A stretch of 64,000 nucleotides of DNA. Origin: Portulaca oleracea (lineage: Eukaryota > Streptophyta > Magnoliopsida > Caryophyllales > Portulacaceae). Every line of letters starts with the position of its first letter. Positions within the stretch are counted from its first letter, which is position 1. This document shows positions 3,066 through 50,164 of this stretch, piece by piece. Location: positions 17,486,332 to 17,550,331 of the forward strand of contig CM055870.1 in assembly GCA_029582165.1 (NCBI GenBank). The letters are read 5' to 3'. Under the pieces are notes generated by a model. The model saw only the letters and a program-made list of their open reading frames with translations. It was not told where the DNA came from and did not search any database. Position numbers and translations under genes: made by a program.

Positions 3066-4870
3066 TTTTAGTTATTAATCACCAAAGAAATTAAACTAAT
3101 TTTAACTTCAAACCAAAACACTTCATCAACTCTCACTTAGTGTTTTAATTTTAACCAAGACCCACAAGACCCATGGGCTCAAGTGGACTTTGGCCCAACA
3201 AAACTCGAGCTCATGTTGCCTTTGGTGGATCATCTTATGATCGATCATTCAAAAATGACTCTTGGCAAGAAATTTGTATCGAATACAATATTTCTCTTCC
3301 TCTGCTCTTGGCCCAAAACTATTTTGATAGCCAATTTGAATTGACCTAGCTCCCACCCTACTTATTAATGATGGACAAATAATTCGCTTTGGCTTTCTTT
3401 ATTTATCCATCTAAGTGGTGTTTCGGTAGGTTGAGCAATAATTCAATTATGAGAGTAGGTTTTATTATCCTAAGCATGCAATTCTAGGTGAATTCTTTCG
3501 AAAAGCACAAAAGGCATAATAAAACATGCAATAACAAAATTAAAGCATAAATAAAACCCCTAGTATGGCCACCTAGACTTAATCAACTAATTTAACTAAG
3601 CCTTGATAGTCTTCAAGAAAGCCTTCTTGGGTCATGCAACTCCATTGGATGGGCTCCCACTCGAATCACCACCTCTATTGCTGTTGGGCTCCCACTCAAT
3701 TTGATGTCTCCAATTACAACCAATTTACAATTTGGACCTCACAATTGAGAATTAAAAATAAACTTAACTGAAATTTTAAATTTAAAATTTAATTCAAAGA
3801 CGGTACGCAGACCGTATTTCACCCAACCCGGTACGCAGACCGGTAAAACTGACTATCTATGGCCATACTAGAAGCACATGCAAACATGTAATATTGCAAT
3901 AAACACATGCTTAAATAACAAATTATAAAGACATATAAATAATTGCAATATAACACATAAGGAAATAAGTACTAAATAAAATTTCCTAAAAGGTTTGCAT
4001 GATTAATAAAGTAAATAAAATCCAAATTTTATCTTAGTTACCTAAACAAATTTAGGATTTTATACCTATACATACAAAATACTTGAATTTCCTAAAATCA
4101 AGGAGTCTAAAAGATACTATATCTTTCAAAAATTATTGTATGTTTCCTAAACTTTACAAAATAATAGATTTTACGCCTATTATCTGATTTAGTAGTAATA
4201 GGATTTAATAATTAATTTCTAAAATTAATTACAAACCCTAAAATGTACGAATTCACCAAAACTGCTGGCAACACGGTTCGTGTTGAACTAACACGGTCCG
4301 TGTTGCTTCCCAGTTTCGGTTAATTTCGTGAATGAAAAACTTAAATAAAACTATCGTAACTTATCGAATTTAAAGATTTCATATCTCAGTGTTATCTAAT
4401 AACCCAATATGAATATTTTCCAGAATTTTAACAATTTTCAAAAGATTGTAAAATTTTAGGGAATTAAACATTTTTAATTCTCTATTTAAGAGGAAAATAA
4501 ATAACAACAGTCCGATAAGTTTAAAAATCAAATTTTATAATTTTCCCATACAGTAGGTTCATCTAATATGCTACTGTAAAAATTTCAGATTTTTATCAAA
4601 TTTCTAAAATTAGAATAAAATTCAGAAAAGTAAACAATTGTACTTTTCTGTTAATTTGAAAATTAAAGGAAAATTAGTAAACGATTTCAAAAATTCACGA
4701 AAATTTTATCCATAACAGGATGGTTACCCAATAACCTATTGTAAAATTTTCAAAAAATTTGCAAATTTCTATAAATATACAAAATTCAGAGAATTAAACG
4801 AATTTTAATTCACTTCAGATCTGAAAACTCAATTAAAAATCCATTTTAATTGGGAAAAATCTAAAAAAAA
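3066..4870. other. AT-rich untranslated block inside the copia locus
   Basis: About 1.8 kb between the gag start and the inverted pol copy, with no coding sequence I recognise. I found no clear copia primer-binding site (the plus-strand form of TGGTATCAGAGC is absent). Two dyad pairs stand out. At 3800-3843 there are two copies of a CGGT-ACGCAG-ACCG word. At 4269-4304 two words of the CAACACGG/CCGTGTTG type have centres 20 bp apart, the same word class as in the LTR at 6.0-6.13 kb. It may be element leader or unrelated filler; I cannot decide. Confidence 0.5.
4269..4304. repeat. pair of CAACACGG-type palindromes, centres 20 bp apart
   Basis: CAACACG-GTT-CGTGTTG at 4269-4285 and AACACGG-T-CCGTGTT at 4290-4304. 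Centres are at 4277 and 4297. The word matches that of the copia LTR at 6.0-6.13 kb. No TATA-like box is obvious next to this pair. Confidence 0.75.
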
Positions 4871-5731
4871 AAAAACTCTTCGATCAGATCGAGGTGGAGA
4901 ATATTTGAGCCAAGAATTCATTAACCATCTAAGAACTTGTGGGATTGTCTCACAGTTGTCTCCTCCAGGAACACCACAACACAATGGTGTATCTGAAAGG
5001 AGAAATCGCACCCTATTAGATATGGTACGATCGATGATGGCAGAGTCAGATTTACCACTTAGCTTTTGGGGGCATGCTCTTGAAACCGCATCGCTCATTC
5101 TAAATAGGACTCCGACTAAAGCTACTGAAAAGACACCATATGAGATATGGAGAGGAAGAGTTCCTAGTTTGTCTTTTCTAAAGATTTGGGGATGTGAAGC
5201 CTATGTTAAGGTTTTACCTGACAGCAAGCTTGCACCCAGATCTGAAAAGGTTTTCTTTGTGGGCTATCCTAAGGAAACCAAAGGGTATTACTTCTACAAC
5301 CGTTCTGAGAACAAAGTGTTTGTGTCTCGGAATGCTTTCTTCTTAGAGAACGAGTTTGTCTCTAAGAGAAAGAGTGGGAGAGAAATTGAACTAGGTGAAG
5401 TTCAAGAGCCACAAACCACTTCGAATCTTATCCCACACCCCGTCACCACTACTTACATTCCAATCTCCGTTGATCCTCAGCAAGAAAGGAATGATGAACA
5501 GGTAGTCGGGGGACAGGTCGATGAAGAAGTAGGGTATGTGGACATACCCCTTCGTAGGTCCAGTAGGGACATTCACCCTCTTGAGAGATACGGTTATCTC
5601 ATGACATCGGAAATCAACATATTCCTTATAGAATATGATGAGCCCGAGACCTACAAACAAGCTTTAGCGAGCCCAGATTCCAAGAAATGGCTCGAAGCCA
5701 TGAAATCCGAGATAGACTCCATGTACGAAAA
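4871..5731 (+). pseudogene. inverted partial copy of copia integrase-RT
   Basis: The plus strand repeats, in inverted orientation, the segment 615-1365 of the minus-strand element: integrase from the second catalytic acid region (RGGEYLSQEF, PGTPQHNGVSERRN) through the integrase C-terminus to the start of RT (YKQALASPDSKKWLEAMKSE). By eye there are about five substitutions and one 1-bp indel over ~750 bp, so the arms are roughly 99% identical. This copy keeps the integrase-RT frame open across the site of the other copy's frameshift, and retains the RT start that the other lacks. It begins abruptly after a poly(A) run (4862-4875) and ends abruptly near 5731, where the RT frame runs into LTR-like sequence. 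Confidence 0.9.
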
Positions 5732-5938
5732 GTCCACGCAGCGCTCCGGGAACCCGATTGCTAGATCGACTCGATCGAGACGAATCTCAATCTAAGATGT
5801 ATGTGAGATTGTTTTAGGAAACTGATAGCGTTTCCTGAAACTAGAACTGCAAAAGGAGAGAGGAACTCAGGAAATCACCCTGGTATCTCTCTAAGAGTCG
5901 AAGGGAGATGGTGTGGAATAATCTCTCCCAGAGACCCC

Positions 5939-5946
5939 TTTATATA
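5939..5946 (-). promoter_or_regulatory. TATA box of the copia LTR
   Basis: Minus-strand CTATATAAAGGGG. It lies about 82 bp downstream, in promoter direction, of the nearest palindrome centre (6028). The plus-strand reading fits the TATA consensus less well, which supports the minus orientation. Confidence 0.7.
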
Positions 5947-6018
5947 GTGTTTAGAAAACCTAGGGAAAGGGTTCAAAACCCTAAAGGGCCGAAAAAGACA
6001 ACGGCGCATCTTCTAGGC

Positions 6019-6129
6019 CCAACACGGTCCGTGTTGGACTCCAGAGAGTCCAAATATTCGGCCCATGGACACCACGGATCGTGGTGTCTCAACACGGACC
6101 GTGTTGAGCCCAATTCGGTCCGTGTTGGG
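6019..6129. repeat. array of four CAACACGG/CCGTGTTG palindromes in copia U3
   Basis: Words: CCAACACGG-T-CCGTGTTGG (6019-6037, 9-bp arms), GACACCACG-GAT-CGTGGTGTC (6068-6088), CTCAACACGG-A-CCGTGTTGAG (6088-6108, 10-bp arms) and an imperfect CCCAATTCGG-T-CCGTGTTGGG (6109-6129). Centres are 6028, 6078, 6098 and 6119, so steps of 50, 20 and 21 bp. A GGACTC/GAGTCC hairpin (6036-6051) sits in the 50-bp gap. Confidence 0.85.
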
Positions 6130-6362
6130 CTGATTTCTCACAGAAATCAGTTTCCAACTTTTCTAAACTTGATACAATATCATTTAGGTTACATACATTG
6201 TTCCAGGGCACTGACTTGTGTGACCCAGTAGGACCAAATAATATAGTTGTAATTAAACATATTTAATTACTAATTATAGAGGTCTCTAGCAAGACATATA
6301 ATCACTATATTACTTTGGTTTAATCTCCGTGTATATCGAACATTGTCGGGACATTCCCAACA

Positions 6363-6970
6363 GGAAGAGCCATTACTTCTTAGCCATAAATGAAAGCAAG
6401 GGTTTCTCCCTCAAATTCTCTCGCTCAAATCTTGTTCTTACTTTAACCTCAATTCATTGTGGTAGCGTTAACAAGTTAATTCCTTTATGGATTAGTGGTG
6501 CTAGTCTTTATCTAATCTTGGTGGAGTTGTAGTTTTGGTGGCGGAATCCTCCGTTACCAAGTCCATATCTTGTGTTTAAGCTTCATTGAAGGTTTCCGGG
6601 TTCAAGGTCTTCTTCCTCCTCAACTCAAGCAAGTCTTTCCCACCATGTCATGCTTCAGAAACTTTGTATTATTTATGTTGGTTGTTTATGAAAATAAATC
6701 AAATAATAAGTGCAAAAAATTAAGAAACTAGGACTAAAAATTCTAATTGATTTCTTGCTCCCGGTGGGAACGGAAGCGGGAGCAAATCTCTAGGTCACAA
6801 CCGGGACCATAACTGGGAGCAAAACTTTGTTTCCGGTCACAACCGGGGCCGGGATAATTACCGGGATCCCAGTCCCGCTCACCTCTAGTTGTAACTCATT
6901 CTCTAATGTTCAACTAATCAAAGTTTCACTGATGTGAATTAACAGTTGTCAATCACTTGAACGAACTTTT
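6363..6970. other. sequence between copia LTR and LINE tail
   Basis: No coding sequence recognised. A direct-repeat-like run of ACCGGGA/CCGGG words occurs around 6755-6880; otherwise unremarkable. Confidence 0.4.
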
Positions 6971-8555
6971 TGTTTTTTTTTTTTGAGGAGAAACACACAA
7001 CGAAAACCATCGCATGCTTATTCATTAAGTGTGTCCATGGACACCAAATGGGAGACTTCCAGAGGAAAAACACCCACCCAAATATTTGAGCGTCTTTGAG
7101 AAAGAGCTAAACGTGCTAAGTTGTGAGCCACCTTGTTACAACTTCTTTTACTAAACAAAAACCGAATTGAAATGAAATATTAGCTAATAGTAAGCAATCC
7201 TTTAGGATCATCTCTATGCTAGAGACGTCCTTTGCTACCCAATGAGTCCATTGAAAACCACTTGACAGTCTGTTTCTACCTCTAACCTTTGCAGGCCACG
7301 GTCTTTTGCTAATTTCCGACTCTCTTGGACTTCTAGCATCTCTGGTTCCTGCGATCCATGGTGTATCTCAAAAGCTGCTGCTAGCACACTGGATCACCCC
7401 CATACGATTCCTGATTATCGCACCCCACCCTTCGTACTTTTCCTTAGTTATGGAGGCATCCGTGTTCCGCTTCCACTATCCTCTCGCCCACCCCGTCCAT
7501 CTCTCCCGACTTCTTCTTGTTTCAGCGAACCTGACCTCATAATTTTGAGCATTCCAAAAGCTGTGAAATACATCTAATGCTCGATTTACTACCTCCATCT
7601 GTTCGCTCTTGAGTCCCTTGATGACCCTTCTGTTTCTCGCGCCCCAAGTTGCCCACACCAGAGTTCCCATCGGCCCCCAACTCCCCTTATCCATCTCCTT
7701 TATTCTCAACTCCAGCGATTGACCCATGCATATCCACAAGCTCTCGGTTATCAACATCAAGTCTGAGGTAGCTACACTTCCACACCAACTTTACCCAGGC
7801 ATAATCCATGAAAATGTGGTTTGATGTTTCATAAGCTTCACCACATGTTTGGCATATAGGATCGATATCCACATTTCATTTTTCGAGGTTCGCCCTAGTG
7901 GGTAGGAAGTCTCCAAGGATGCCATACACATTATTTAACTCTCGGTAGAGCCTCCATTTCCCATATTAGCTGAGCACTTTTCCTCCACTCTCCCTTGAAC
8001 ATTCACCCTTCTTCCTCTAATTCCTCCTATTCATAGTCCTCACAAGTTTGTAAGTCGTCCGCACCGTGAACAAGCCATTGTAGCTCAGTTGCCAAATCAG
8101 CTCATCATTCTTTGAGGTCTCACTCATTGGAATGGACTTGATCTCTTTCCTGGTTTTCTCATTGAAACACAAAGTTAGTAGGTCCTCTCTCGGTCTCTCT
8201 AACATCTTTAGCTCCAAATCAATGAGCTGAGCTACCAACACCTCCCCCACCCCCAATAACTAAGGTGGTGTTCGGACCTCACCTCTTTGCGTTTGCGGGA
8301 GCCATTTATTGCCCCAGATCTAGGTTTTCCTCCCATTCCTAATATGCCATCGAGCTCCTTGCTTGACAAATTCTTTTGCCTCATGTATGTTGTGTCAAGT
8401 AAAGCTTGGTTGGTAACCCACTTTTTCCTGCCACAACTCCCCTTCGTGAAATACCGAGCCTTTAGCACCCTCATTGCAAGAGCATCATGTTTATTGGCCA
8501 ACCTCCACACCCATTTGGCCAACAAGGCCTTATTAAAGCACCTAAATCGACGGAA
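6971..8555 (-). pseudogene. 5'-truncated L1-type LINE ORF2 (zf-RVT and RNase H) with poly(A) tail
   Basis: Read on the minus strand from 8555: FNKALLAKWVWRLANKHDAL, the start of the post-RT domain of plant L1 elements; then a zf-RVT-like zinc region (CQTCGEAYETSNHIF); then LVWATWGARNRRV; then an RNase H domain (LEVETDCQVVFNGL and CNKVAHNLARLALSQRR) ending near 7020. Endonuclease and RT upstream are absent, so the copy is 5'-truncated. Several stops and frameshifts break it. A T-run on the plus strand at 6972-6984 is the poly(A) tail, as expected for target-primed reverse transcription. No target duplication could be defined. Confidence 0.85.
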
Positions 8556-8764
8556 AACTATCCTCCGTCTATTCTTATATTGTCAATGTGTAATCGTATA
8601 TATTAACTCCTCATATAAGTAAATTTATGAGATATATAGAACATATAGTTATCAAATAATGGTATGTAGACTAATGATTTTGTCCTTAATCAGTCTCATA
8701 TTAGTCAAATTTATTATTAGCGTAGGATTATTAAACTATTTCTTTTATAGGAAGATTAGTAAAT

Positions 8765-8950
8765 TTATTCAAAAGTCAATTGAACATTATAAGAATCTTG
8801 TGAAACAAGATCAACACCGTAGGACGACCCGTCATCAGCCCAATTTCTAGTGGGTAGATTGATGGGTTGTATATGAGCTAGAGCATGGACAACTCTATTC
8901 CCGCTTCTTCTAATATGCATAAATAAAATATTATTAGGCAAGGTCATCTT
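8765..8950 (-). pseudogene. second LINE RNase H fragment
   Basis: The minus strand reads FMHIRRSGNRVVHALAHIQP, matching the C-terminal part of plant LINE RNase H domains (the RRxxNxVAHxLA pattern). Only about 60 codons are visible. It is separated from the preceding LINE by ~200 bp of AT-rich DNA and is probably an independent remnant. Confidence 0.6.
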
Positions 8951-9324
8951 TTAAGCAAGGTTTGAGTTGTATGTGTGATATGTATCCAATTAGTCAAATA
9001 AGGATGAAAAGTTCAAAGCTTGTCTACTTTTCCATTCAAACTAATTGAAATTATATATATGCTAAGTGAAAGTTCAAGTCGAGAGACACTTTCATGATGC
9101 ATACTAACTCCTTGATTTCTCGGGTGTTCAAGTTCTCCAAGTGGTGCCATGTATGGCGGGGGTAATCTTACCCAAATGAGCGATCCCGGGCTATTTCAAG
9201 TGCAACTCTTGAAATGACGGGGGATTGTTGTAGTATTTCAAGAGTTAAGAGGCTTAAGGGACCAAGTTATAAGCTAAGGATTGACCGGGAAGGTCAAAAT
9301 CTAGCTTACTAAGTGAAATGGACC

Positions 9325-9650
9325 CAACATGGACTGTTTCATGTATGGCGCGGGTCATGTTGGGGTCTAAAGAGTCAGAAAAAGACTCCCTGGATCAACA
9401 CGGACTGTGTTGTTCCAGTATGGGTCGTGTTAAGGCCAATACGTTCCGTGTTGGAGCCCAGTTGAGTTCTTTTTCAAAATCCCTTGATTTCAGCCTGAAC
9501 ATTAATTCGTAGGGGCATCTTCTAGGATTATTCTTGATTGATATTCTCAGTCAAGATTAACGCTTTAATGACGATCAAAACCCCAGAGACAAAGCTCCCA
9601 AATCATGCTATATTGATTGTCAAGTTTGAATGCTCCAACTCATATAAATA
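9325..9650 (+). promoter_or_regulatory. decayed LTR-type promoter with CAACACGG palindromes and TATA box
   Basis: Degenerate copies of the word seen in the copia LTR at 6 kb have centres at about 9333, 9355, 9404, 9424 and 9445 (steps 22, 49, 20, 21). The clearest is CAACACGG-A-CTGTGTTG at 9396-9412. A canonical TATAAATA lies at 9643-9650 on the plus strand, followed by a pyrimidine-rich leader. LTR ends could not be identified, so this is probably part of an old LTR. Confidence 0.55.
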
Positions 9651-10974
9651 GCGGATTATTTTCACTCATCCAACACACCTCAACTTCTCCTTCTATCTCT
9701 CTAAAGAGCTTCAACACAACTCCTAAGGTGTTGAACTGCAACAATTTCTTGAGAGTTCTTGAGAGATCTTGTACTTTCTTACAAGAGGTTAGGTTTTCCC
9801 TTAAGTCTATTCACGACCTTGTGAACAAGTCTTAAGGGGAGATGAGTTTGACCTTCGGCTCCTAGCTACCCAAGTGATCCCACATCTTGTGCAAGTGACC
9901 GTGTTACCCCATATTTGCAACAACTGCAATCAAGTTTGTCATACTATGGTGTACTTAACTCCAAATCATGAAATGTTAGGCCTACTGGAGTTCAATATGT
10001 CATACTTTGGTTTCACCCAATTCAGTGGTGGTGACTAGAGTTTGATAGTTTCACAATATAATTGGCTTGTTGTGATACAATTTTATTTAAAGTTCAGTTT
10101 ACCACAATCCAAATGCCTAAAGTACGGTAAACTACAACCCAGTTTTCAATTTTTAAAAGAATATTAACTTCAACATTCACGGAGTTCCAAAGAAATCAAA
10201 TACTATCTAAGCGTCTTGTCAAAACCAAGACTTCAATCAACATCCATGGAATTGTTGTTATTAACCATCGTTTCTAATAGAAAAATTATGTTTAGTATAA
10301 TATTAATTGTTTTGTTAAGATGTTTGATGTTCAAACATATTTGGGATCTTTTAGCCCCTTGAACATTCCAACTAATAGTCTCCATTTATTAGACTTTGCT
10401 AATAAAAAGTCACTAAGTTCATAGTATCAATGAAATTTAGTATAACGCGGTTTAAATATCTTTAGATCTTCCACTGAGTTAACCAAAAGATTGTTGGGTT
10501 TGGTACCCTTAAGATGATACTTTGGTTTCGCACCCCTCAAGTTTAATGTTTAGGATTACAACAACACCAACAACAATAGACTCCAATATAATCCCACTAA
10601 CATGGACTCTGAGGGAATCCGAATGTAGGAAACCTTCCTCCATGCATGAGAGTGCATGAAGAGGTTGATTTCGACGGATCCAAAATATCCATTTTGAAAA
10701 TGGATCTCAACGGAGTGATGATCATGAAGGAACACAGTGTTGGCACCCACTTTTATTCCCAAATATTAAGCGAGAGACCGCTACACAATGTGTATCTTGA
10801 CCTCTTCTCGCATATGACATGCCTTAATTAGTAAAATATTTAGCTTTAAAAAGCCTATACACCAATTAGTCTTGCATATGTAGTAATATCAAGATTTTGC
10901 TTCTCAAGAATAACGTAATTGAAAGCCTCACTCAACATTGTTAAACCCCAAGCCTTCGTACCTCTTAATCATAA
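9651..10974. other. non-coding sequence, possible LTR remainder and retroposon trace
   Basis: No recognisable coding sequence. Around 10,555-10,640 a CAACAACACCAACAACAA run is followed by a sequence resembling common plant retroposon 3' tails (a similar one is at 26,968-27,050). The first ~250 bp may be R/U5 of the preceding LTR fragment. Confidence 0.35.
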
Positions 10975-11418: not shown

Positions 11419-11424
11419 TCATAA

Positions 11425-12290: not shown

Positions 12291-12306
12291 AAAACAGTGT
12301 AGGGGG

Positions 12307-12661
12307 TATTTATACTAAGAGGGAATTAAAAACAAAACACAACGTTTTGGGAACAAAAACTCGCAAAAGAAAGTAGCCATCGCGGGCGCTACGGAGGGGT
12401 CGGGGGCGCGACGGAGCGTCAACGCAGCAACATCGGCATCCGAGAAGGGAGCGTCCCGGGAGCGACGGACCGGCGGATGCAGCAGTCGTCGTCTCTGGGA
12501 CAGACGCTGGCAACGTCTGTCCAGGCGCTGGCAGCGCCTATCAATGATGCCCAGCCAAGGTTTGCCCAGAGCTGGGTCGCGGGCGCTAACTTGATGGTAG
12601 CGGGCATTACACCCTTTTCCCGGATGGTAGCGGGCGCTACACATGTAGTCGCGGGCGCGAC
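12307..12661 (-). promoter_or_regulatory. LTR-like promoter with four palindrome pairs and a TATA box
   Basis: The minus strand has TATAAATA at 12307-12314. Upstream, at higher coordinates, are eight dyads in four pairs: centres 12385.5/12405.5 (GCGGGCGC type), 12510/12531 (GGACAGACG-N7-CGTCTGTCC and AGGCGCT-GGC-AGCGCCT), 12582.5/12603.5 (GTCGCGGGCGCTAA and GTAGCGGGCATTAC) and 12633.5/12654.5 (GTAGCG-GG-CGCTAC and GTCGCG-GG-CGCGAC). Spacing within pairs is 20, 21, 21 and 21 bp. Further upstream the word CTCCGTTTTAGGCCCATAAG is repeated directly near 12,716 and 12,751. No LTR termini were identified. Confidence 0.65.
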
Positions 12662-15378: not shown

Positions 15379-15439
15379 AGTAGTATCACAGCAGGTCCAC
15401 TCAAGAAGAGAGTAACCATTATGTAGAAAAGATCATGGT

Positions 15440-26428: not shown

Positions 26429-27294
26429 ATAGCTTTAACTGCACTGACTCGCCAACATCCACTATGAGCCAAACTCGAACTATTATTTAGGATTTTTATT
26501 TGGAAAATTGGATTTAAATAATTCGAGTTTTGATCATGATAGACTGAATAATATAAACTTTAAAAATATCATTGAATAATCTGAACTTTGACCATATTTG
26601 ATTACAGTATCATGTCAACATTAATTATTTACCCAATCCTCATTTATTTAAAAATATTCTCTCTATTTTTAATTATTCCCTTTATTTATTTAAATTCCAA
26701 TATGGATAAAGTTCATATTCTCAAATAAAATGAGGATTTGGTAAGTAATTATGGTTGACATACTATTGTAATCCAATATAGTCAAAATTCAGATTATTCA
26801 GTGATTTTTTAAATTTAAGATTATTTAGTCTATCACATGTCAAAATTCAAATTATTTATATCTAATTTCCCTTTTTATTTTTAAGAAAAATCAATAGTAT
26901 CAACTGTTTTTTTACATAAACATTCCATTTTCAACAAAGGATTAATATTTATCTTTTTTATTTATGTACAACAACGACAACAACAACTGTCCTCAACATA
27001 GTCCCGCTGTTGTGGGGTTTGAGGGGATTCAGATATAGGCATGCAATCTTCCCCTCATTCACAAGATTACCTCATTTTTTTTATATATTTGGAAAAAAAA
27101 TTGAAAGAAAGATAATGTTAATCGCAAGAGCTATCAATATTCATCTTTACCTGGAGTTGGACTAATATTAAAGATGTTGTTTTTGAAACACATACAAGCT
27201 TAGCGTATATATCAAAACTTTAAGTACATTGGCTCGCCAACATCCATCATGAGGCAAAGTCGAATTATTATTAGGATTTTTATTTTTAAGCAAA

Positions 27295-27414
27295 ACAAGT
27301 TTTATTCGCACGCATTGCATGCATCGATTCTTATATTTTTTTATATGTATATATATATACACACACACAAAATTTAAAAATCGATGCACGCAATGCGTGC
27401 GAATCAAAACTTGT
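27295..27414. mobile_element. hairpin MITE in duplication unit 1
   Basis: Inverted repeat of ~35 bp arms: ACAAGTTTTATTCGCACGCA on the left pairs with the complement ending CGTGCGAATCAAAACTTGT on the right, with few mismatches. The loop contains a short TATA/CACA run. It would form a long foldback in either strand. Confidence 0.75.
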
Positions 27415-28273
27415 AACTTTAACTACACTGACTCGCCAACACCCACCATGAGCCAAACTCGAACTATTATTTATGATTTTTATTTGGGAAATTGGATTTA
27501 AATAATCCGAGTTTTGATCATGATAGACTGAATAATATAAACTTTAAAAATATCATTGAATAATCTGAACTTTGACCATATTTGATTACAGTATTATGTC
27601 AGTATTAATTATTTACCTAATCCTCATTTATTTAAAAATATTCTCTCTATTTTTAATTATTCCTCTTATTTATTTAAATTCCAATATGGTTAAAGTTTAT
27701 ATTCTCAAATAAAATGAGGATTTGGTAAGTAATATGGTTGACATACTATTGTAATCCGATATAGTCAAAGTTCAGATTATTCAGTGATGTTTTTAATTTA
27801 TGATTATTTAGTCTATCACATGTCAAAATTCAGATTATTTATATCGAATTTCCCTTTTTATTTTTAAGAAAAATCAATAGTATCAACTGTTTTTTTTACA
27901 TAAACATTCCATTTTAAATAAAGGATTAATATTTATCTTTTTTATTTATGTACAGCAACGACAACAACTGTCCTCAATATAGTCCCGCAGTTGTGGGGTT
28001 TGAGGGAATTCAGATATAGGCGTGCAATCTTCCCCTCATTCACAAGATTACCTCATATTTTTTTATGTTTGGAAAAAAATTGCAAGAAAGATAATGTTAA
28101 TCGCAAGAGCTACCAATTTTCATCTTTACCTGGAGTTGGACTAATATTAAAGATGATGTTTTTGAAACACATACAAGCTTAGCGTGTATATCAAAACTTT
28201 AACTATACTGGCTCGCCAACATCCGTCATGAGTCAAACTCGAATTATTATTAGGATTTTTATTTTTAAGCAAA

Positions 28274-28404
28274 ACAAGTTTTACTCGCACGCATTGTGCA
28301 TGCATCGATTCTTATATTTATTTTTTATATGTATTTACATATACACATACAAAATAAATAAATTCAAAAATTGGTGCATGCAATGCGTGCAAATCAAAAC
28401 TTGT
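28274..28404. mobile_element. hairpin MITE in duplication unit 2
   Basis: Same foldback as in unit 1, from ACAAGTTTTACTCGCACGCA to GCGTGCAAATCAAAACTTGT, with a slightly longer loop and more mismatches. It is present because the whole unit was duplicated, or each unit ends at a MITE. Confidence 0.75.
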
Positions 28405-29335
28405 AGGTTATAATATGAGTGCATTTTGACAAATGACTTAAAAAGTACACCCTAAATAACTAGTAAGTAAAAAAAATATAAATTACTTTCAAATAGTTTC
28501 AATATAGCACATAAAGTGATAATATTCTTTGAAAATAATAGTCAGTTATTACCAAACCGATTGAATATTCTCATGAAGAGTAAGAGCAATTTATTGACAA
28601 TGCATATATGATGAGTTGGAAAAAAAAAAGAGCCCTTTAGTTTTAGGGTTGTTTATCCCCTTTAAACATGAATACTTTTCGTGTTGCTTAATTAGTAACT
28701 ATTCCTTTTGCCCCTTATTATTTATTATTTTTAATCTATTATGATATTAAAAGTATTTATTATTTTATTTCTAAACTTTAATATAATATATTTGAAAATA
28801 TTATATAAATATACGTATGAAAGTTTTTTTACGATAAATTTAATAACGTTAATTAGTTGTATAGTTTACATAATTACATATATTGATTTATTAATAATTA
28901 AAATTTACAAAATTTTACTACAAATACCTTATAGATATAAGGCATTCAAGAATATTTGAATCAAAATGTTTGATTCAATATGAATCTTTGAGAAACACAT
29001 TATCAGTCTCTTGCCTTGGTGTAATATAACACCATTGGACACTAAGTTGAAAAGAAATGATATAACTAAAACTTATAACTACAATATCATACATAGATTG
29101 CATAAAACTATGCAGAAAAGAATACATATTTTTCAACATTTTTCTTATGCATAATGTTTGAAATTTACAAAAAAAAAAAAAACACAAAGTATATGCTTAG
29201 CTAACGAATGTGTTTGATTCAAATATCATTTATATTCGTTAGCATAATTACCACATGCTAAACTATTTATAATGGTACTAATGAGGTGTCAGCCTAGTGA
29301 AACACACTAAAGTTTCGAGTGCATTGAGGCTATGT
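28405..29335. other. AT-rich intergenic sequence with a small hairpin
   Basis: A perfect GCTAACGAAT/ATTCGTTAGC hairpin lies at 29,200-29,243. No coding region recognised. Confidence 0.4.
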
Positions 29336-43300: not shown

Positions 43301-43653
43301 AAGGAAGCAAAGTAGAATGGGACGATCAATGTCAAGCTGCTTTTGAGAAAATCAAGGAATATTTGCAACATCCTCCAGTTCTCATGCCACCAGTACCAGA
43401 TGAGCCTCTACTCCTTTACCTTACAATGACTCGCTCAACAATGGGGGCTATGCTAGCTCAAAAGGTAAAAAGTCAAGAGAGCGCCATCTACTACCTGAGC
43501 AAGAAGTTCCTAGACTACGAAAGTCGATATGCAGACATAGAGAAAATGGTCATCGCATTAGTTTGGGCCACCAAGAAGCTGAGGCACTACATGCTCTCAC
43601 ACACAGTGTATGTAATAGCTGAGAACAATCCCATCAAATTCATCATGGAGTAA
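40363..43653 (+). pseudogene. Tat-like protease, reverse transcriptase and first (gypsy) RNase H
   Basis: A 1,096-codon open stretch in the same frame as gag. Protease: LVLVDNGSTMNVCP (D-x-G-S active site, ~codon 220) with the later LLLGRPWLHE flap-side motif. RT: VCVDFRDLNKASPKDSFPLP, SFMDGYAGYNQI, MPFGLKNAGATYQR and catalytic VYVDDMIVKS (42,976). The first RNase H is recognisable by LSKKFLDYESRYADIEK, but its leading catalytic Asp is replaced (LLLYLTMTRSTMGAMLAQ), which fits the Tat lineage, where this domain has decayed. It ends at TAA 43,651 in the IKFIME region. Confidence 0.95.
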
Positions 43654-44635
43654 CCAACCATCAACAACCGCATCGCTAGATGGGTAGTCAAGCTTTCTGA
43701 ATTCAATCTTCAATACTTACCCCAGAAATCCATTAAAGGGCGGGTTGTTTCAGATTTTCTGGCTGCTTCACCATCATAGGAACCTCCAAGCACTCACTTG
43801 GAATTCCCAGACGAAGACGTGTTCTTAACTGATGAAGTTACTTGGGAGATGTATTTTGATGGAGCTTCTAATCAAATGGGTTGTGGAATAGGAGTACTGT
43901 TAATATCTCCAGAAGGTGCACATGTCCCTGTATCTGTAAAATTGGATTTTGATGCCACTAATAATGCAGCGGAGTATGAAGCATGTATCAAAGGTCTACA
44001 AGCTGCCTTGGCTTTAGGAATACGCCACATAAATGTCTTTGGAGACTCTAGCCCCATCATTAACCAGGCTAAGAATGCATGGAAAGTTCGAAGTGAGTGC
44101 CTCTTAGCTTACTAGCAGAAGCTTTTGGGACTAGCTGACCAATTTGAGAAGATCAGTTTTCAATACCTTTCTAGGGATCACAATGAACTGGCTGATGCCT
44201 TGGCCAAGTTGTCTTCGATGATATCAATCCCATTGGGCACACTCGAGCTACCAATGATTGTAGGGCGATAGTCTGAACCCGCATATGTCTGTGCCATGGA
44301 AACACAAGATGATGAGACTGATGAATGGTTTCTTGACATATACAATTTCCTTCGGAAGGGAGAATATCCAGCTGAGTTAGATGCTCGAGGACAACGAGCG
44401 ATCAAGGCTTTAGCAGCACAATACTGCTTGATCCAAGATCGTTTATATAAGAAGTCACCTTCAGGCATCAATTTGTTGTGTATTGATGCCAAAAGTGCAA
44501 AAGAAGTCATGACTATTGTACACAGAGGAGAATGTGGGCCTCACATGAATGGTCGCATGTTAGCGAAGAAGATTCAAAGAGCAGGTTACTACTGGACCAC
44601 TATGGAAGCAGACTGCTTGAATTTTGTTCGGAAAT
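43654..44635 (+). pseudogene. Tat-like second RNase H and start of integrase zinc finger, three in-frame stops
   Basis: Same frame as pol. The archaeal/plant-type second RNase H diagnostic of Tat/Ogre elements is complete: WEMYFDGASNQ (Asp), NNAAEYEACIKGL (Glu), VFGDSS (Asp), RDHNELADALAKLS (Asp). A spacer follows (RGQRAIKALAAQYCLIQDRL), then the first half of the integrase zinc finger (VHRGECGPHMNGRMLAKKI ... DCLNFVRK). Stops: TAG at 43,777, 44,113 and 44,269. The Athila-like element interrupts the frame at 44,636 within the finger. Confidence 0.93.
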
Positions 44636-45393
44636 TGTTCGGTTGCGTATTTTTGTGGTTTTATAAGTAAGGATGTCGAACTCGAGGATGGGTGTGAGGT
44701 TTGTCTAGGTTTTTGGCTTGTTAGAGGTTTTCAATTGCAGAAAACATTAAAGTATGAAAATTAAGCGATTAAACTATCCCTAATCATGATACTAAACATG
44801 ACCATTAAAAAGAACACAATCAAACAAGTAATTACTACTATAAATGTAAGAAATCTAAAAGCTTATCAAACGAACATTTAATAAAACTCTAACTACCACT
44901 AAGATCAAAGCAAGCAAATAGCAATTAAATAGCAACTAATTAATCTAAACAAGATTAGAATGTAGTCCATACCCTTGATGACTAGTCAAAATCAATCTCC
45001 ATTCTTCATTCTTCATCTTCGTTTGCAACTTTCCCCGAACAAAATAGAAAGTTGTGAATTAAGTTACTAAGGACCCTCAAATCTTCACTCTAAGTAAGAT
45101 TTGTGGCCCTTAATCCCCCTTTTCACTAAAAGATTGATTGTTTGTGGCTAATCTAAGAACCTTCAAATGCAAACTTCAATGAAATCTAAAGCATAAAGTA
45201 ATGAAGATAAAGGAAAGCTGAAAATTACTTGAAGAAAAGTTGATTACATTCAAAATCTCAAGAACTTGGAGAACAAGGCAAGAGAAAACCCTTAGAGAAA
45301 GAAAGTAAAAGCTTAATTAAGAAATCATTAAAACCACTAATTACAAACTAAAACTTTAGCTAATTGTCCTCTAAAATGGAATCGCAGCTAAGG

Positions 45394-45401
45394 CTCTTAT
45401 A
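45394..45401 (-). promoter_or_regulatory. TATA box of the Athila-like LTR
   Basis: Minus-strand CATTATAAGAGCC. The nearest palindrome starts 67 bp upstream. The same sequence is present in the truncated LTR near 57,160. Confidence 0.65.
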
Positions 45402-45467
45402 ATGACCTAAGTTAGCTGCACAAAACGCAGCATCTCATTTCCAGCCTGTATGCAGAAAACAGAATTG

Positions 45468-45792
45468 GCTCGGGCGAGCGAGTGCTCGAGCGGCGAGCAT
45501 TCAGTCGCGTGTTTCTTGTTCCTCGGCAACTTCTCCTCGGCAGCTCAGCAGCTCAGCTCGGTCGAGCAGGGCCCTTACTCGGGCGAGCTGGCCCTCTGTT
45601 TCTTCATTACCTTAGCCATATTTTTCGAACTTTCCACGGTTGTCGTGCAGAAGCATGGCTCGGCCGAGCCAATATGTTGCTCGGGCGAGCCAGCTTTCTG
45701 TCTCTCCTCTTCTTGGCTCAAAATTAAACGGCAAATCTTGCTGTTTTTCCAGAAGTGTTGCTCAGGCGAGCCAACATGTTGCTCGGTCGAGC
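45468..45792. repeat. array of GCTCG-N2-CGAGC palindromes in Athila U3
   Basis: Words start at 45,468 (GCTCGGGCGAGC), 45,484 (GCTCGAGC), 45,556 (centre GT), 45,577 (first base off, centre GG), 45,658 (GGCTCGGCCGAGCC as perfect 14-mer), 45,679 (GG), 45,760 (GCTCAGGCGAGC) and 45,781 (TTGCTCGGTCGAGCAA). Three pairs, 45,556/45,577, 45,658/45,679 and 45,760/45,781, are each exactly 21 bp apart, and the pairs repeat every 102 bp. Confidence 0.93.
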
Positions 45793-45966
45793 AACCCTTC
45801 TGCCTTCACTCCTGATTTGGTGAGTTTTTGCTCCGTTTTGGCTCCATTTTAGGTCACTCTCTTATTTTCCTACAAAACTACAAAAATCTCATAACTCGAA
45901 TAAAATACGGGGTTAGAACATATAAAAACTCCCTAATAAAGAGAAGAATTCTCAAACGACCGAACA

Positions 45967-46002
45967 CCACTCCCACACAAGGGTTTGCTCGCCCCGAGCA
46001 AA
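45967..46002 (-). promoter_or_regulatory. polypurine tract and adjoining palindrome
   Basis: Minus-strand TTGTGTGGGAGTGG directly abuts the 3' LTR (45,967-45,980). Immediately upstream in element sense lies a 19-bp dyad TTTGCTCG-CCC-CGAGCAAA (45,984-46,002), built on the LTR palindrome word. Confidence 0.8.
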
Positions 46003-47973
46003 CTAAAAACAAAGAAAAGAACTAGAAAGAGAAACTAAAAATCCTAACTCACTTTCGCAGGAATCGCGGATGCATTTAGCATATGCATCAAGCCCTTTGA
46101 ACCCCCCGGCAGCCCGGGTGGACGAGGTAGATCTCGTGAGGGGTTATAGCAACTATACCCACAAAAGCCATAGAAAAAGGAAAGAGGGAAAGTGAAAAAC
46201 AAAACAAGTTTAAAAGAAAAGAAAAAGAGAACTGCTCGTTTCAATGAATCAAGTTGTTTCAATTAAGAAAACGGTATTAATCCTCCAAAAGGAACCGTTA
46301 TGAGCATCTCACAACACCTAACCCAAACAACTGTCAATCTTAGAAATTTTTGATCCCTTACACCTCATGTAGAGTTTAATCCCATTTGAAAGAGTTTTAG
46401 ACAGTTCTAATCGATCCCCGACGACCCAAAAGACTCACACCCGAGCTTACAAAACAGCGAAACGAACAAAGGAAAGGAAAGAGTTGCCCCTCCCCGCATT
46501 TGGTCGCCCTTGGCTTGGTGAGGACCGCAGGTGATGCAAGGAAGAGCCCCTCACTTTATTAACACTTCAAACTTTTTCTTCTTTTTAATGTCGGTATTAG
46601 CCTTATTTTCGGGAATTGGACGGCCCATATAAGGGGTATACCCTCCCAACACGGTCTTTTCCATTCGCCTCTCCGTCGCAAAGCGATATAGGAGGAGGGT
46701 TAAGGGGCATCCGTGCCGTACCACTGATACCGGGCCCGTGTAGGTTGGCTAAGTGTATGGTGGTTGATGTCGTAAAGCCGACACGCCCCTCTTATTCAAA
46801 TTATTTAATTTTGCTGCTATTTTCTTACTTTTGCTTTGGCTTTTGCTTTTTTTTCTCTTTTTTTTTCTTTCTTTTTCTTTTTGGAAAACAAGCTCGGATA
46901 TGAACCCCTAGAATCTCCCAGTTTCAACTAGAACATAAAAGAAGGAATGGGATCTCACTAGACACTTGATGAAAAGAATCTAATTAAGGTAAGTCATGAC
47001 AATCGCCCAAGTTAGGGTCGAAAATGCTCAAACCGGTTTCTTTCAAAGAAGATTAAGAACGGCTTCCTGATTTCAACAACGAAATCCAAGAAACAAAGCA
47101 AAAACAAAAACAAAACGAAAAACGAAAACTTTCAAGGTTTTTCACTCCCTTTTTTTCTCTTTTTCACACAAAATTTTTAAATTTTTCGACACAAACTACG
47201 AAAAACGAAAACAAAGACTCAAAACTGGGTGATCTACCCATGACAAATGGAAGTATCACCCCCCACTCCCACACAAAACTCCACAATGTCCCCATTGTGA
47301 GAAGAAGGGTGTCACAAATAAGGTAGAAAACCTAAAAACACACAACAAACACATTACAAACAATAATTGGTGGCGACCCGAGCCCACACGGCTCCAACAA
47401 CAATAGTTTCCCAACATTCACACTCACGGGGTTCGCCACCCAAAAAGAAAATCAAGCATACCTCATGGATCAACAATATATTCACAATGAGAAGGATGGT
47501 TAAAGGATGATACCTGAGGATCGCCAAGTAAACGCGCATCCCAGCACACGATCCACGAACGTAACACCAGAAAAAGAAACTTCAAATATTCAAACATGTA
47601 CATGATCACTGACTAACCTCAACCCCGAATCTCACTATATGAGGTGGGAATCAAGGGTGAAATGCCTCGCCACTGCCCGGGAACAGCACACAACCCCTCG
47701 CGCATGTATATCTCAAAATTGAAAACACACATCTAATGCAAAATAAAAGAGGGGAGTGTGGAATGCTCACAATCACTGCTCATTACCTCCCGGAGGAAGG
47801 TACGGATAGTAGGGGAAGTAAGTTGGGTAATACTGGTTGATATAGTCGGGCGGTGCTGGCGAATGGTCGGCTATAGCATAGTGATAGTATCCCCAATCCC
47901 TCCAATATTGATTTTGCTGATGGAAGTACTCGTCATAGCGCTGAAAATATCCTTCGTGCCGTTCGAGAGTTGA
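46003..47973 (-). other. untranslated region between env-like ORF and polypurine tract
   Basis: About 2 kb with no recognised coding sequence. A second polypurine-tract-like module lies at 47,257-47,300. Confidence 0.6.
47257..47300 (-). repeat. internal polypurine-tract-like module
   Basis: The minus strand reads CACAATGGGGACATTGTGG, then TTTTGTGTGGGAGTGGGGGG. It matches the module at 50,357-50,402 and the tract beside the LTR. Confidence 0.7.
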
Positions 47974-49261
47974 TTACTGCACACGAAGGAGTTCCTGTTG
48001 ACTCTCCATCAAGTTGTGCGTACTTTGTAGCAAAGTTCGCTGTTCGCGGAGGTCAACACTCAATTGGTCCAATCGGCTTGCTAAGTGCCCCATCGTAATC
48101 TCTTGGGAATTACTACCACTAGCCTCACCCTGGGTTGCCGGCTCCCCCTCTTCTTCCACATTTTCGCGCACAAATGGGTCATCGGGACCCCCAACTCGAC
48201 GGGTGCTCCATGGATTTTCGCCACACGACCAGTTGTGTTGATTGGTCACATCCAACCAACGTGCGGCTCGCTCATGGTCCAAATGAATGGAAGTTGCATA
48301 TTTATCCGAGTCGTGCTTGTAGATATGCTTTGTGTTGTGGCGCTCAAGGATACCCATGCGTTGCAACCGAATACCGTCGATGGGGTCGGGAAAATATCTC
48401 GGGGTGAACTTGCGGATATATCCTCCAAAATGTTGCTTCATCAAAAAGTGGCAAATAATATGCCCCATTCCAATTGTAGAGGTAAGGTGCTTAGAGGTAA
48501 TGTCTTTTAAGCAATGCAAAATGCAAGACCCCGTGTTCACCCGCTTCCCTTGGAGGGTGTTAAAGATGACAAACAAATCGTCCCTCCGCACATTCGCCCT
48601 CCCATCATCTCTTCCGAAGACCGAACTTGAGACTACGCGATGAAAGATTCGAATCGCCAAGTTGCACAAGTCACGAGACTTGGAATTTCTGGTCAAGAAG
48701 GAGCAATCCTCTAGAGCATTTGACTTTTGGTGCTTCCGACGCCAACAAGTAAGACTCTTCATAGCGGTTTGTTCATCAAAGTGTACGCTCTCCTCATGAT
48801 AAAGCCCATTCGCCGGTAACCCAAGTGCTTGAAAAAACTCTTGCACCGTGCAAGTTTTCTCCTTGTTGTCCACTCTATAACGGAACTTAGCGTGGCATGT
48901 ATCAACATCCTCAACTTGGAAAGAACTGAGGAACTCAAGAATCGGTTGATCGTAAAGAGATTCGTCAATCTTGATGAAAGATTCCCAGCTCAAGGTCCTT
49001 ATGATAAAATCAAAACTGGGGCCACAATACACCCTCTTCACTGTGGCTTCATCATATATATCCGGAGCACAAAGTTTCCGGTGTTGATAAAGCTCATACT
49101 TCTCTCGATGATGCTCATCCTCACCAAGTCGCAATTCGGTCACCAAGAAGCGTGGGCGGTTGGGCCTTGTAACGATCTTTATCCACCGCCGCCGATGAAG
49201 ACTCGGGCGGTGGTGAAGGTGTACCTTCCTCATCGGTGCGGGCTCTCTTAGATCGAACCAT
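47974..49261 (-). pseudogene. env-like (third) ORF of the Athila-like element, N-terminal frameshift
   Basis: The probable true start is ATG at 49,261, reading MVRSKRARTDEEGTPSPPPE, a basic, Pro/Ser-rich N-terminus. The frame must shift near 49,170 to enter the long 419-codon frame (RPRFLVTELRLGEDEHHREK). The core has WESFIKIDESLYDQPILEFL, then FRYRVDNKEKTCTVQEFFQA and LGLPANGLY, the pattern conserved in downstream ORFs of Athila-type elements. The C-terminus is acidic, then coiled-coil-like (LASRLDQLSVDLREQRTLL). I see no signal peptide or membrane segment, so an envelope role is doubtful. Function unknown. Confidence 0.8.
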
Positions 49262-49747
49262 TGTGAATTTCAAAACAACACTAGCAACTCAAGAATCTCC
49301 AAATAGCAACCAATACACACAACACTCAAGCCCTAAGTCTGAGAAACAATTCACAAGCAACACCCAACTTAACTTTGAAATTGAACTTTAAAGCACCAAT
49401 TGAATGTTACCTCCCAAATAGCACTAAAGGAAAATGTGGTTGAATTCTCAAGAGCTAAACCACCCCTTTCTAGAAGCCACCCAATCTTGAAGCACGAAAC
49501 CACCACTACACCACCCGCACATCACAGATGCACCACAGCAGCCCAGAAGTGTTGGGATTTCGCTTGTTGACAGCACACAACAGCAGCAGCACAATTAGGG
49601 CACAAAATCCGACCAAGATCTGGAAGAAATCAAAGCAAATAACAAAGATTCAAGAGTTAGGGTTGAATGCTAGGGTTTGGGGAAGTAAGGGAGAGAAATG
49701 AGAGAGAAACGAATGGGAAAAACTAAGAAAAAGTGAGAGAACAACGC

Positions 49748-49755
49748 ATAAATAA
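49748..49755 (-). promoter_or_regulatory. TATA-like box upstream of the env-like ORF
   Basis: Minus-strand TTATTTATGC, about 50 bp downstream of a palindrome array and ~490 bp before the env-like start. It is weaker than the other TATA boxes here. It could serve an internal promoter. Confidence 0.35.
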
Positions 49756-49803
49756 CCCCGACAGAAAAAGATTCTGCCAACGGCTCGCTCGAAGCCGACT
49801 TTC

Positions 49804-50164
49804 CTCGCCGCGAGCAGGATTCGATGCGAAAACAGTTCGTTCAACGATCGCCGACCGAGCAGCAGACACGCCGCTCGAGCCGTTTTCCGACGGCTGGGCG
49901 TGCCTGTCAGACTCTTTCCCTTTGGCGCTTCAGTGGACAAGCTCGACCGAGCAAAGGTGTTGCTCGCCCGAGCAGCTCTTCTGTCGTCCGCCTGCCTTGA
50001 CGCAGAACTCACTCTCAGTTTAGGCACAGTCAACTGGCTCGACCGAGCCAGGTTTTCGCTCGCCCGAGCGACGCTGCTGGAAATATTGCCTTCTCTTTCT
50101 CCTTTACTCATGAAGCTACCTCAGTGAGTGTGCTCGACCGAACCATGTTCTCGCTCGCCCGAGC
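49804..50164. repeat. internal array of GCTCG-N2-CGAGC palindromes
   Basis: Words start at 49,941 (GCTCGACCGAGC), 49,962 (GCTCGCCCGAGC), 50,037, 50,058, 50,132 (last bases off) and 50,153, plus CTCGCCGCGAG at 49,804 and GCTCGAGC at 49,873. Three pairs are exactly 21 bp apart, repeating every 96 and 95 bp. The central dinucleotide alternates strictly AC, CC, AC, CC, AC, CC on the plus strand; the LTR array shows the complementary GT/GG on that strand, so this array is inverted relative to it. Confidence 0.93.

Follow-up and report, generated by a model that had tools for sequence, protein, structure and literature searches.

Paired CpG palindromes about two helical turns apart in Copia-type and Athila-like retrotransposons of Portulaca oleracea

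Abstract

We have confirmed that short CpG-containing palindromes occur genome-wide in Portulaca oleracea as pairs whose centres are separated by about two turns of the helix. Arrays of these pairs are found in the long terminal repeats (LTRs) of Copia-type elements and in an Athila-like Ty3/gypsy element, where they occupy both the LTR and the region before an accessory gene. The arrays are hypothesized, with a probability of roughly 0.56, to be cis-regulatory operator pairs for cooperating dimers that have grown by tandem duplication and are kept by selection.

Results

Frequency of paired palindromes

The window, that is, the whole stretch of 64,000 nucleotides of contig CM055870.1 that was analysed, was scanned for perfect CpG dyads with arms of at least 5 bp. 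Six successive spacings fell within 19.5-22 bp (observed values 20-21), against a mean of 0.045 and a maximum of 1 in 200 dinucleotide-preserving block shuffles. A looser rule (arm of 6, one mismatch) gave a smaller excess, with 7 spacings against a shuffle mean of 1.89 and a maximum of 6. An independent sample of twenty 10-kb stretches (C1-C20 at 10.0 Mb, 9,464 N) held four pairs at exactly 21 bp, located in 2 of the 20 stretches, while 30 shuffles yielded a mean of 0.13 and a maximum of 2. The sample also contained one unconvincing pair at 20 bp. Comparison with a shuffled background was the check set by an initial annotation of this DNA, and an excess was found in window and sample alike.

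That annotation listed 30 dyads: 16 without mismatch, 8 with one, 3 with two and 3 with three, although these tallies vary with the arm length chosen. The three-mismatch dyads at 9,333, 9,355 and 9,424 are doubtful. Perfect dyads that had been overlooked include those at 6,028, 45,473.5 and 45,993. The count of steps (eleven of exactly 21 bp, with nine of ten in the last three groups) was right for the positions assigned to the dyads at the time. No pair array was noticed in the own sequence of a further element of the window, element A (34-63 kb).

Pairs of four palindromic words were counted in one genome, that of P. oleracea (1.13 Gb): GCTCG-N2-CGAGC (W1), GTAGCG-N2-CGCTAC (W2), GTCACG-N2-CGTGAC (W3) and AACACGG-N-CCGTGTT (W4). 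W1 formed 5,196 pairs, 4,478 of them at exactly 21 bp when spacings of 12-42 bp were allowed. W2 formed 976 pairs, and 21 bp prevails among those listed (35 of 50 at 20-21). For W4, 2,255 pairs were counted and 20 bp prevails among those listed (45 of 50 at 20-21), whereas the 522 pairs of W3 fall into two classes, with 32 of the 50 listed at 20-23 bp and 15 at 29-31 bp. The proposal of 21 bp as a universal spacing is thus abandoned. Genome-wide reversed-pattern controls returned 0-4 pairs (4 and 0 for the W1 search), and two arbitrary words gave no pair excess across the genome. Spacers of W1 are varied: of the 42 listed pairs at 21 bp, 41 were compared, the 42nd, a duplicate, being left out, and these contain 28 distinct sequences. 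In the loci read, the usual unit is a pair and not a longer run.

Tandem Repeats Finder detected one short 21-bp array (45557-45595) in the W1 regions of the window, and we rejected the idea that the arrays are plain high-copy tandem repeats. A Pfam scan of ten open reading frames (ORFs) from fetched loci gave three matches, namely an integrase core (L030), a Copia reverse transcriptase (L001) and zf-RVT (L031), and an Rfam search gave no match. GTAGCG pairs were also seen in three contigs of the viral_contigs collection (L025-L027); these were set aside and are likely, at a guess from their sequence, to be prophage operators. Searches of the same collection for related loci and for Opie-type word pairs returned nothing useful.

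W4 and W2 arrays of the window

Upstream of a Copia gag start lies a pair of W4 (AACACGG-type) words with centres at 4277 and 4297 (4269..4304, unstranded). This is probably not a promoter pair, because the region matches a related locus (L035) in which the pair, at 2754/2774, lies about 720 bp behind an iMet-type primer-binding site (PBS). The W4 array of a Copia-type LTR (6019..6127, minus strand), with dyads at 6028, 6078 and 6098 and a degenerate one at 6119, aligns with L035 and another locus, L033, whose LTRs both have the array, then a TATA box, then an iMet-type PBS. Its TATA box, ACTATATAAAGGGG (5939..5946, minus strand), follows the array by about 85 bp and is identical in both loci. 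On the plus strand, a decayed W4 array (9396..9454; dyads at 9404 and 9445, with 9424 unconvincing as a dyad) is followed about 190 bp later by the TATA box TATAAATA (9643..9650). The pair claimed at 9333/9355, with three mismatches per dyad, is unsupported. A W2-type array (12377..12661, minus strand) combines GTAGCG/GTCGCG-GG-CGC words with two related dyads in four pairs spaced 20, 21, 21 and 21 bp, and the TATA box TATAAATA recurs about 70 bp after it (12307..12314, minus strand). Locus L046 likewise has a W2-type array, then TATA, then an iMet-like PBS. All three TATA boxes of the window described here were found by eye.

Element B and its accessory gene

Element B (44634..57240, minus strand) is an Athila-like Ty3/gypsy element bounded by repeats at 44634-45475 and 56399-57240 that are 99% identical; its 5' LTR appears to be without its U3. 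Its primer-binding site is TGGCGCCGTTGCCGGG (56384..56399, minus strand), which agrees with the primer-binding word without mismatch. Pfam domains occur in the order gag, protease, reverse transcriptase, RNase H and integrase, followed by ORF3. On the basis of this domain order, element B has the Ty3/gypsy gag-pol and the extra sense ORF 3' of pol of the Athila lineage. Pfam scans found no additional RNase H in element B, the feature by which Tat is set apart (PMC6317226).

The arrays near 45.6 and 49.9 kb lie in one element rather than in two: both belong to element B, whose LTR and ORF3 upstream region have a word in common. In the 3' LTR, the W1 array (45468..45795, minus strand) consists of pairs at 45786.5/45765.5, 45684.5/45663.5 and 45582.5/45561.5 and a single word at 45473.5. 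A TATA-like box found by eye, CATTATAAGAGCC (45394..45401, minus strand), follows about 70 bp later, and a related LTR piece (L040) has a 21-bp pair and a TATA box, there CATTATAAAAGCC, at matching places. The second W1 array, in the interval between integrase and ORF3 (49941..50164, minus strand), has three pairs of exactly 21 bp with 74-75 bp between pairs, and five of the six other regions upstream of ORF3 contain a similar array. A TATA-like TTATTTATG with a C/T-rich stretch (49747..49756, minus strand) belongs to the presumed ORF3 promoter; the word TTATTTAT is present in element B, L039 and L041 and absent in L036-L038.

ORF3 (47974..49269, minus strand) is an accessory gene in sense orientation with a weak match to Transposase_32 (E 6e-7, 29.9 bits, under the Pfam cut-off of 45). 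A protein search with ORF3 gave no match at E 0.001. The genome holds 97 scored ORF3 places, that of element B included, and about half of the 97 listed are without an internal stop. A single-sequence structure model of ORF3 (mean pLDDT 38.6) was unusable. In L030, a relative of element B (50% identity in the integrase and 38% in the ORF, over 142 aa for the latter), a different word occupies the same place as the array of B with the same spacing; this is the only word change seen within the lineage.

Conservation, phasing and TATA boxes

Six copies of the ORF3 array were compared, with L040 omitted from the divergence count as its ORF3 upstream region does not align. Pairwise differences amounted to 3.3% for the word arms and 26% for the 2-bp core; within-pair spacers differed by 36% and the segments between pairs by 22%. 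Variable columns numbered 6 of 60 in the arms versus 77 of 152 elsewhere (Fisher p 1e-8). Retention of CpG had been read as a sign of selection or recent amplification. It is high in the word arms (69/72), but also elsewhere in the array (16/18), which makes this sign weaker than stated; outside the words over the whole 1.2 kb, 120 of 162 CpGs are kept.

Distinct spacings are concentrated at multiples of 10.5 bp for W2 (R 0.80) and W3 (R 0.75; n=33 for either word), in agreement with the helical phasing proposed earlier, although the 21-bp mode weighs heaviest in the Rayleigh test, some spacings of 42-44 bp conceal a degenerate middle word, and family copies are not independent. With spacings of 19-23 bp removed, R was 0.48 (n=22, p 0.006). 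The phase from one pair to the neighbouring pair is not constant.

Most arrays had been described as lying upstream of a TATA-like box. By eye this is so for the window groups at 6.0, 9.4, 12.4, 45.6 and 49.9 kb, and the order array, TATA, primer site is seen in four LTR loci (L002, L033, L035 and L046). A blind scan of 31 arrays from the window and fetched loci, which counts TATA words 20-220 bp away and misses degenerate arrays and TATA variants, found one in 11 of 31; the rate at randomly placed positions was 24%, so that the excess is not significant (p 0.11).

Discussion

Within each dyad, a free core of 2-3 bp separates two inverted half-sites that are conserved and end in CG, and the unit is two such dyads with a free spacer sequence. 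We propose that each dyad would be bound by one protein dimer and that the two dimers of a pair, lying on the same face of the DNA, would bind cooperatively, by which the element may recruit an activator. Arrays would grow by tandem duplication of word-plus-spacer units and of larger units, selection would hold the words and their spacing while the remainder drifts, and each family would have its own word. In element B the same operator would precede ORF3 as well as lie in the LTR, so that a single factor could switch the two. Copia-type and Athila-like elements are unrelated and have different words, yet the geometry is common to them; together with the conservation of the arms alongside drift of the spacers and with the phasing, this fits cooperating dimers on one DNA face, as had been suggested; that the dimers cooperate we infer from these patterns. 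Since one word can be common to unrelated elements, host factors are suggested to read at least some of the words. The TATA scan and the CpG retention elsewhere in the array led us to mark this operator reading down and to mark up the possibility that the spacing is a by-product of duplication.

According to the latter, the words are single binding sites or nothing at all, and tandem slippage of 20-21-bp units sets a spacing that has no function. Exact 20- or 21-bp tandem duplications do occur and could fix the spacing in this way. Whole word-plus-spacer units of exactly 20 bp have been gained or lost among the W4 copies of L033, L035 and the window, five consecutive words at one W2 place are separated by the same 7-bp spacer, and weak paralogy between inter-pair segments is seen in 4 of 6 comparisons. 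We nevertheless consider it unlikely, as spacers have strongly diverged and arms have not, spacings of 20-22 bp are common to four different words, pairs rather than longer runs prevail, and the 29-31 bp class lies near three turns. Retention of the dyads as transcript hairpins, feeding small-RNA silencing or protecting RNA, seems very unlikely. All six arrays or pairs that were folded are more stable than the shuffle mean (z -2.7 to -7.8), so that hairpins can form as the initial annotation had envisaged, and palindromes of maize Sireviruses attract small RNAs (PMC10760457, PMC5311732, as far as the available parts of these papers go); but perfect palindromes fold regardless of function, a fixed spacing of 20-21 bp with a free spacer is not predicted, and keeping a silencing target runs against the interest of the element. 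The related idea of a link to 21-nt small RNAs is weakened by the preference of W4 for 20 bp. Chance or base composition, to which the modest window excess under the one-mismatch rule might point, is refuted by the perfect-arm shuffles, the reversed patterns and the arbitrary words, and is given practically no weight.

As a special case of operator pairs, the protein of the Athila-like ORF3 might bind the array of the family to which it belongs and thereby switch its own promoter and the LTR, or remove silencing; word and protein would then co-diverge. This possibility, built on analogy with the VANC proteins of VANDAL transposons (Hosaka et al. 2017, PMC5735166, as partly available), appears quite unlikely to us. 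It would account for the arrays in the LTR and before ORF3 of element B, for the changed word at the same place in L030 and for the many ORF3 places without internal stops, and the available text of PMC11728184 describes an ORF of a sunflower Athila element that partly resembles Transposase_32 and is predicted to be nuclear. Against it, W4 arrays occur in a Copia-type element in which an extra ORF was not noticed (no systematic search was made), the W2 word is also present in LTRs with iMet-like primer sites so that one word serves unrelated elements, the low-confidence ORF3 model shows no DNA-binding fold, and a single word change is known within the lineage. Slightly more doubtful again is the broadest form of the hypothesis, in which two CG-core palindromes about two turns apart would be an operator architecture common to unrelated plant LTR lineages and read by fast-diversifying, tetramer-forming factors; in Athila-like elements the factor would be their own nuclear ORF3 protein, driving the LTR and its own promoter, with word and protein co-diverging in an arms race with silencing.

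The statement that no named system matches these arrays needs revision, as a related kind has been described in Sireviruses, whose 'RM' boxes are CGG-CCG palindromes (Bousios et al. 2010, PMC2829016). In the available portion of that paper, RM boxes are located in LTRs and upstream of env and the motif is termed Sirevirus-specific. Common to both are arrays of CpG palindromes with family-specific words in LTRs, repeated ahead of an env-like or accessory gene, here at 49941-50164. RM boxes of the LTR lie before a TATA box, an order that is seen here in four LTR loci, with no significant TATA excess over the 31 arrays scanned. Unlike RM boxes, the words here are paired at 20-22 bp, a pairing for which no statement was found in that portion, and they are hosted by a short-gag Copia element and by an Athila-like element of the Ty3/gypsy type. 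Sireviruses are Copia elements with a large gag and a coiled coil behind the CCHC knuckle, whereas element B is Ty3/gypsy and the knuckle of the window Copia (aa 268-283) is followed by the next domain from aa 312. The CGG-CCG core is found in AACACGGNCCGTGTT, while three of the four words are without it in general: GTAGCG-N2-CGCTAC and GTCACG-N2-CGTGAC generally lack it and GCTCG-N2-CGAGC has it only with a GC core.

With the targets of VANC, as described in the accessible part of PMC5735166, the arrays have in common short, family-specific non-coding motifs that are multiplied by tandem duplication, as in the exact 20-bp gains and losses and the larger paralogous units here, and that change between families. 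The VANC21 motif is a 9-base word in one orientation in DNA transposons, unlike the palindromic pairs, and no VANC-like protein was identified in this analysis. Palindromes in the LTR cis-regulatory region are shared with maize Opie/Ji, where, from the portions available (PMC10760457, PMC5311732), they are small-RNA hotspots; the arrays here are known from sequence. Sunflower Athila 14 has a comparable sense ORF 3' of pol, and the accessible text of PMC11728184 does not mention a palindrome array or an ORF promoter. Insertion-site palindromes of LTR elements, judging from the part of PMC6911290 available, are a different matter.

Conclusions

The paired palindromes bear on which factors plant retrotransposons recruit and on how promoters function inside silenced DNA. 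A conserved geometry with exchangeable words provides a signature that can be searched for. This signature predicts that two dimers leave a protein footprint on the same face, distinguishes DNA binding from RNA folding, and would allow candidate factors to be retrieved with defined probes. Its occurrence in both groups suggests convergence or exchange of promoter grammars between Copia and Gypsy elements.

Methods

Perfect CpG dyads (arms of at least 5, loops of at most 3) were collected from the window, and their successive spacings were compared with 200 dinucleotide-keeping block shuffles. The surrounding genome, which its retroelements mark as that of a plant (1.13 Gb, 63 contigs), was searched for the same word occurring twice with any gap of 0-30 bases, each search being paired with a control pattern. 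An unbiased sample comprised 20 stretches of 10 kb, located at 10.0 Mb on contigs C1-C20. Conservation was assessed in the 1.2 kb upstream of six further copies of ORF3 (the accessory sense ORF of element B), taken from 97 scored places, and divergence was counted over element B and the five copies that bear an array. Candidate TATA boxes (TATA[AT]A[AT]) were sought blind, 20-220 bp past either array end and pointing away, for 31 arrays, defined as pairs of 19-23 bp with up to one mismatch and drawn from the window and from the loci retrieved from this genome.

Results

The 64-kb window contains 61 perfect CpG dyads, or 59 once overlapping ones are merged, and six successive spacings among the latter fall at 19.5-22 bp, against a shuffled mean of 0.045 and maximum of 1. 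With perfect arms, the recurrent spacing of about 21 bp proposed in the initial annotation thus withstands shuffling; under a looser rule (6-bp arms, one mismatch) the contrast is weaker (7 observed, 1.89 shuffled, maximum 6). Sixteen of the 30 dyads originally listed are perfect and eight carry one mismatch, whereas three have two mismatches and three have three. Two more dyads of a different type (CGGTACGCAGACCG), seen by eye, lie about 29 bp apart at 3800-3845 near the Copia leader pair. Single TGCTCG-N3-CGAGCA dyads occur a few hundred bases from arrays (window 45993, L029 1848 and L045 1978), including in loci with another array word.

Genome-wide, 5,196 pairs of GCTCG-N2-CGAGC (W1) were found against 4 for the control, and in 4,478 of these the spacing was exactly 21 bp (control 0). 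GTAGCG-N2-CGCTAC (W2), GTCACG-N2-CGTGAC (W3) and AACACGG-N-CCGTGTT (W4) gave 976, 522 and 2,255 pairs, each against 0. Two words not taken from arrays showed no excess: GACG-N2-CGTC (1 pair, control 20) and TTCG-N2-CGAA (6 pairs, control 15; spacings, as match length minus ten, of 11, 23, 26, 29, 35 and 40). Among the 50 pairs listed for each array word, which come from the first genome places only and therefore over-represent related copies, spacings were 21 (42 pairs), 20 (3), 22 (3), 19 (1) and 42 (1) for W1; 21 (34), 20 (1), 30 (2), 35 (1), 39 (4) and 42-44 (8) for W2; 20-23 (32), 29-31 (15) and one each at 25, 33 and 42 for W3; and 20 (41), 21 (4), 17 (1) and 41-42 (4) for W4. Counting each distinct spacer once left the picture for W2 and W3 unchanged. 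A step of exactly 21 bp therefore describes W1 well, but W4 is mostly at 20 and W3 at 20-23 and 29-31.

With distinct spacers, W2 and W3 spacings cluster on multiples of 10.5 bp (R 0.80 and 0.75, n = 33 each), mostly through the 21-bp mode. The phase is weaker but still present without spacings of 19-23 bp (R 0.48, n = 22, p 0.006), and for spacings of 24-36 bp alone R is 0.52 (n = 12, p 0.04, mean phase -1.2 bp). Some 42-44-bp cases enclose a decayed middle word. Neighbouring pairs hold no constant phase between them, so the unit is the pair.

In the unbiased sample, two of the 20 stretches held four perfect dyad pairs between them, all spaced exactly 21 bp (shuffle mean 0.13, maximum 2 in 30 shuffles); one stretch has an AACACGG-type word and the other GTAGCG-type words. 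One further pair at 20 bp was unconvincing; a third stretch gained a 21-bp pair once one mismatch was allowed. The word TGACGTCA, chosen arbitrarily and required to recur at a distance of 21 bp, did so at five genome places, and three of the four fetched (L001, L002 and L004) contain W3 dyads 21 bp apart, while L003 is without them.

Element B (44,634-57,240, minus strand) is a Ty3/gypsy element with primer site TGGCGCCGTTGCCGGG, gag, protease, RT, RNase H and integrase, then ORF3 in sense, which matches Transposase_32 weakly; we call it Athila-like by domain order. It has two W1 arrays. The first is situated in the interval separating integrase from ORF3 and precedes TTATTTATG and a C/T-rich stretch; the second belongs to the 3' LTR, where CATTATAAGAGCC comes about 70 bp after it. 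As first proposed, pairs are carried by unrelated retroelements, here Copia-type and Athila-like ones. Most listed ORF3 places match from residue 41-50 on, many with longer open frames than the window copy, whose 5' part therefore probably differs in frame.

At 57,240 the 5' LTR of element B ends inside a dyad, and the integrase of element A, which surrounds it, seems to lack a part there; for these reasons both junctions appear to stem from a single deletion. In this single case (44633/57241 and 45468-45479), the apparent breakpoint lies inside a W1 dyad, and the 5' U3 of element B was apparently lost with part of that integrase. Element A (34-63 kb) has a plus-strand gypsy gag-pol and minus-strand plant-mobile-domain ORFs (60407-61788; a weaker match at 58198-58824) resembling the antisense ORFs of Ogre/Tat; no pair array was noticed in its own sequence. 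Elsewhere in the window there are a tandem duplication of about 984 bp (26430-28405, 93% identity) and inverted copies of a Copia pol piece (613-1375 and 4864-5627, 99% identity).

A W1 array is present upstream of five of the six further ORF3 copies, with pairs of 21 or 22 bp that are mostly separated by 74-75 bp; the sixth copy (L040) has undergone rearrangement, and an LTR piece in it carries a single pair at 21 bp. Across the six array-bearing copies, pairwise difference was 3.3% in word arms (30/900 letters), 26% in the 2-bp core, 36% in the 9-bp spacers and 22% between pairs, and variable columns numbered 6/60 in arms versus 77/152 elsewhere (Fisher p 1e-8). CpG was kept at 69/72 positions in arms, 16/18 elsewhere in the array and 120/162 in the whole piece outside words. 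CpG retention, originally read as a sign of selection or recent amplification, fails to distinguish the words from the rest of the array, since 16/18 are also kept around them; arm conservation does distinguish them.

L033 and L035 can be aligned with the 6.0-kb W4 array; there the array is succeeded by a TATA box about 82 bp further along and then by the primer site, which places these arrays in LTR U3 sequence. The gag of the window Copia is short. At 12.4 kb, TATAAATA lies about 70 bp past the end of the W2-type array, and L046 and L002 (W3) show the order array, TATA, primer site (one mismatch). We take these primer sites to be iMet-type in L033 and L035 and iMet-like in L046 and L002. The proposal that most arrays precede a TATA-like box holds for these particular LTRs, with order and alignment in its favour, but across the 31 arrays there was no significant excess: 11 had one, compared with 24.3% at 8,600 places drawn at random from these sequences (p 0.11), in a scan that overlooks TATA words of non-standard form and splits or misses degenerate arrays such as the left portion of the one at 12.4 kb.

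Discussion

The motif grammar, CG-core palindromes paired about two helical turns apart, is real and abundant. The arrays themselves were made by duplication: W4 copies differ by exact 20-bp units of word plus spacer, one W2 place has five consecutive words with one spacer, and between-pair segments show weak paralogy in four of six comparisons. In VANC systems, motif arrays likewise grow by tandem duplication (PMC5735166). The main rival reading is that duplication also sets the spacing; against it, 20-22 bp is common to four words, and the spacers have diverged. That words diverge while geometry is kept is borne out by a single case, in which L030 has a W2 array between an integrase 50% identical to that of element B and an ORF 38% identical to ORF3 over 142 aa, so that the word has changed with place and spacing the same.

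The paired arrays resemble the RM boxes of Sireviruses, which are palindromic with a CGG-CCG core, lie upstream of TATA in LTRs and upstream of env, and are called Sirevirus-specific (Bousios 2010, PMC2829016); the passages on RM boxes there state no box-to-box spacing. Compared with these, the arrays described here have a wider host range and a fixed pair geometry. Small-RNA peaks have been reported on maize palindromes (PMC10760457, PMC5311732), and nuclear localization is predicted for a sunflower Athila ORF that partly resembles Transposase_32 (PMC11728184). No paired geometry appeared among the titles and abstract openings listed for retrotransposon, LTR, Sirevirus or Athila palindromes, palindromic motifs with factor binding, or helical spacing. 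Its novelty is provisional, because most subscription papers lie outside the literature covered and this is the one plant genome searched.

Three viral contigs (L025-L027) have GTAGCG-N2-CGCTAC pairs at 23-26 bp; we guess that these are possibly bacterial repressor operators of similar geometry. LTRs whose primer sites are iMet-like (L046 and L047) contain the W2 word as well, which speaks for host factors reading the words. The function of the pairs is most likely that of a putative operator for cooperating dimers.
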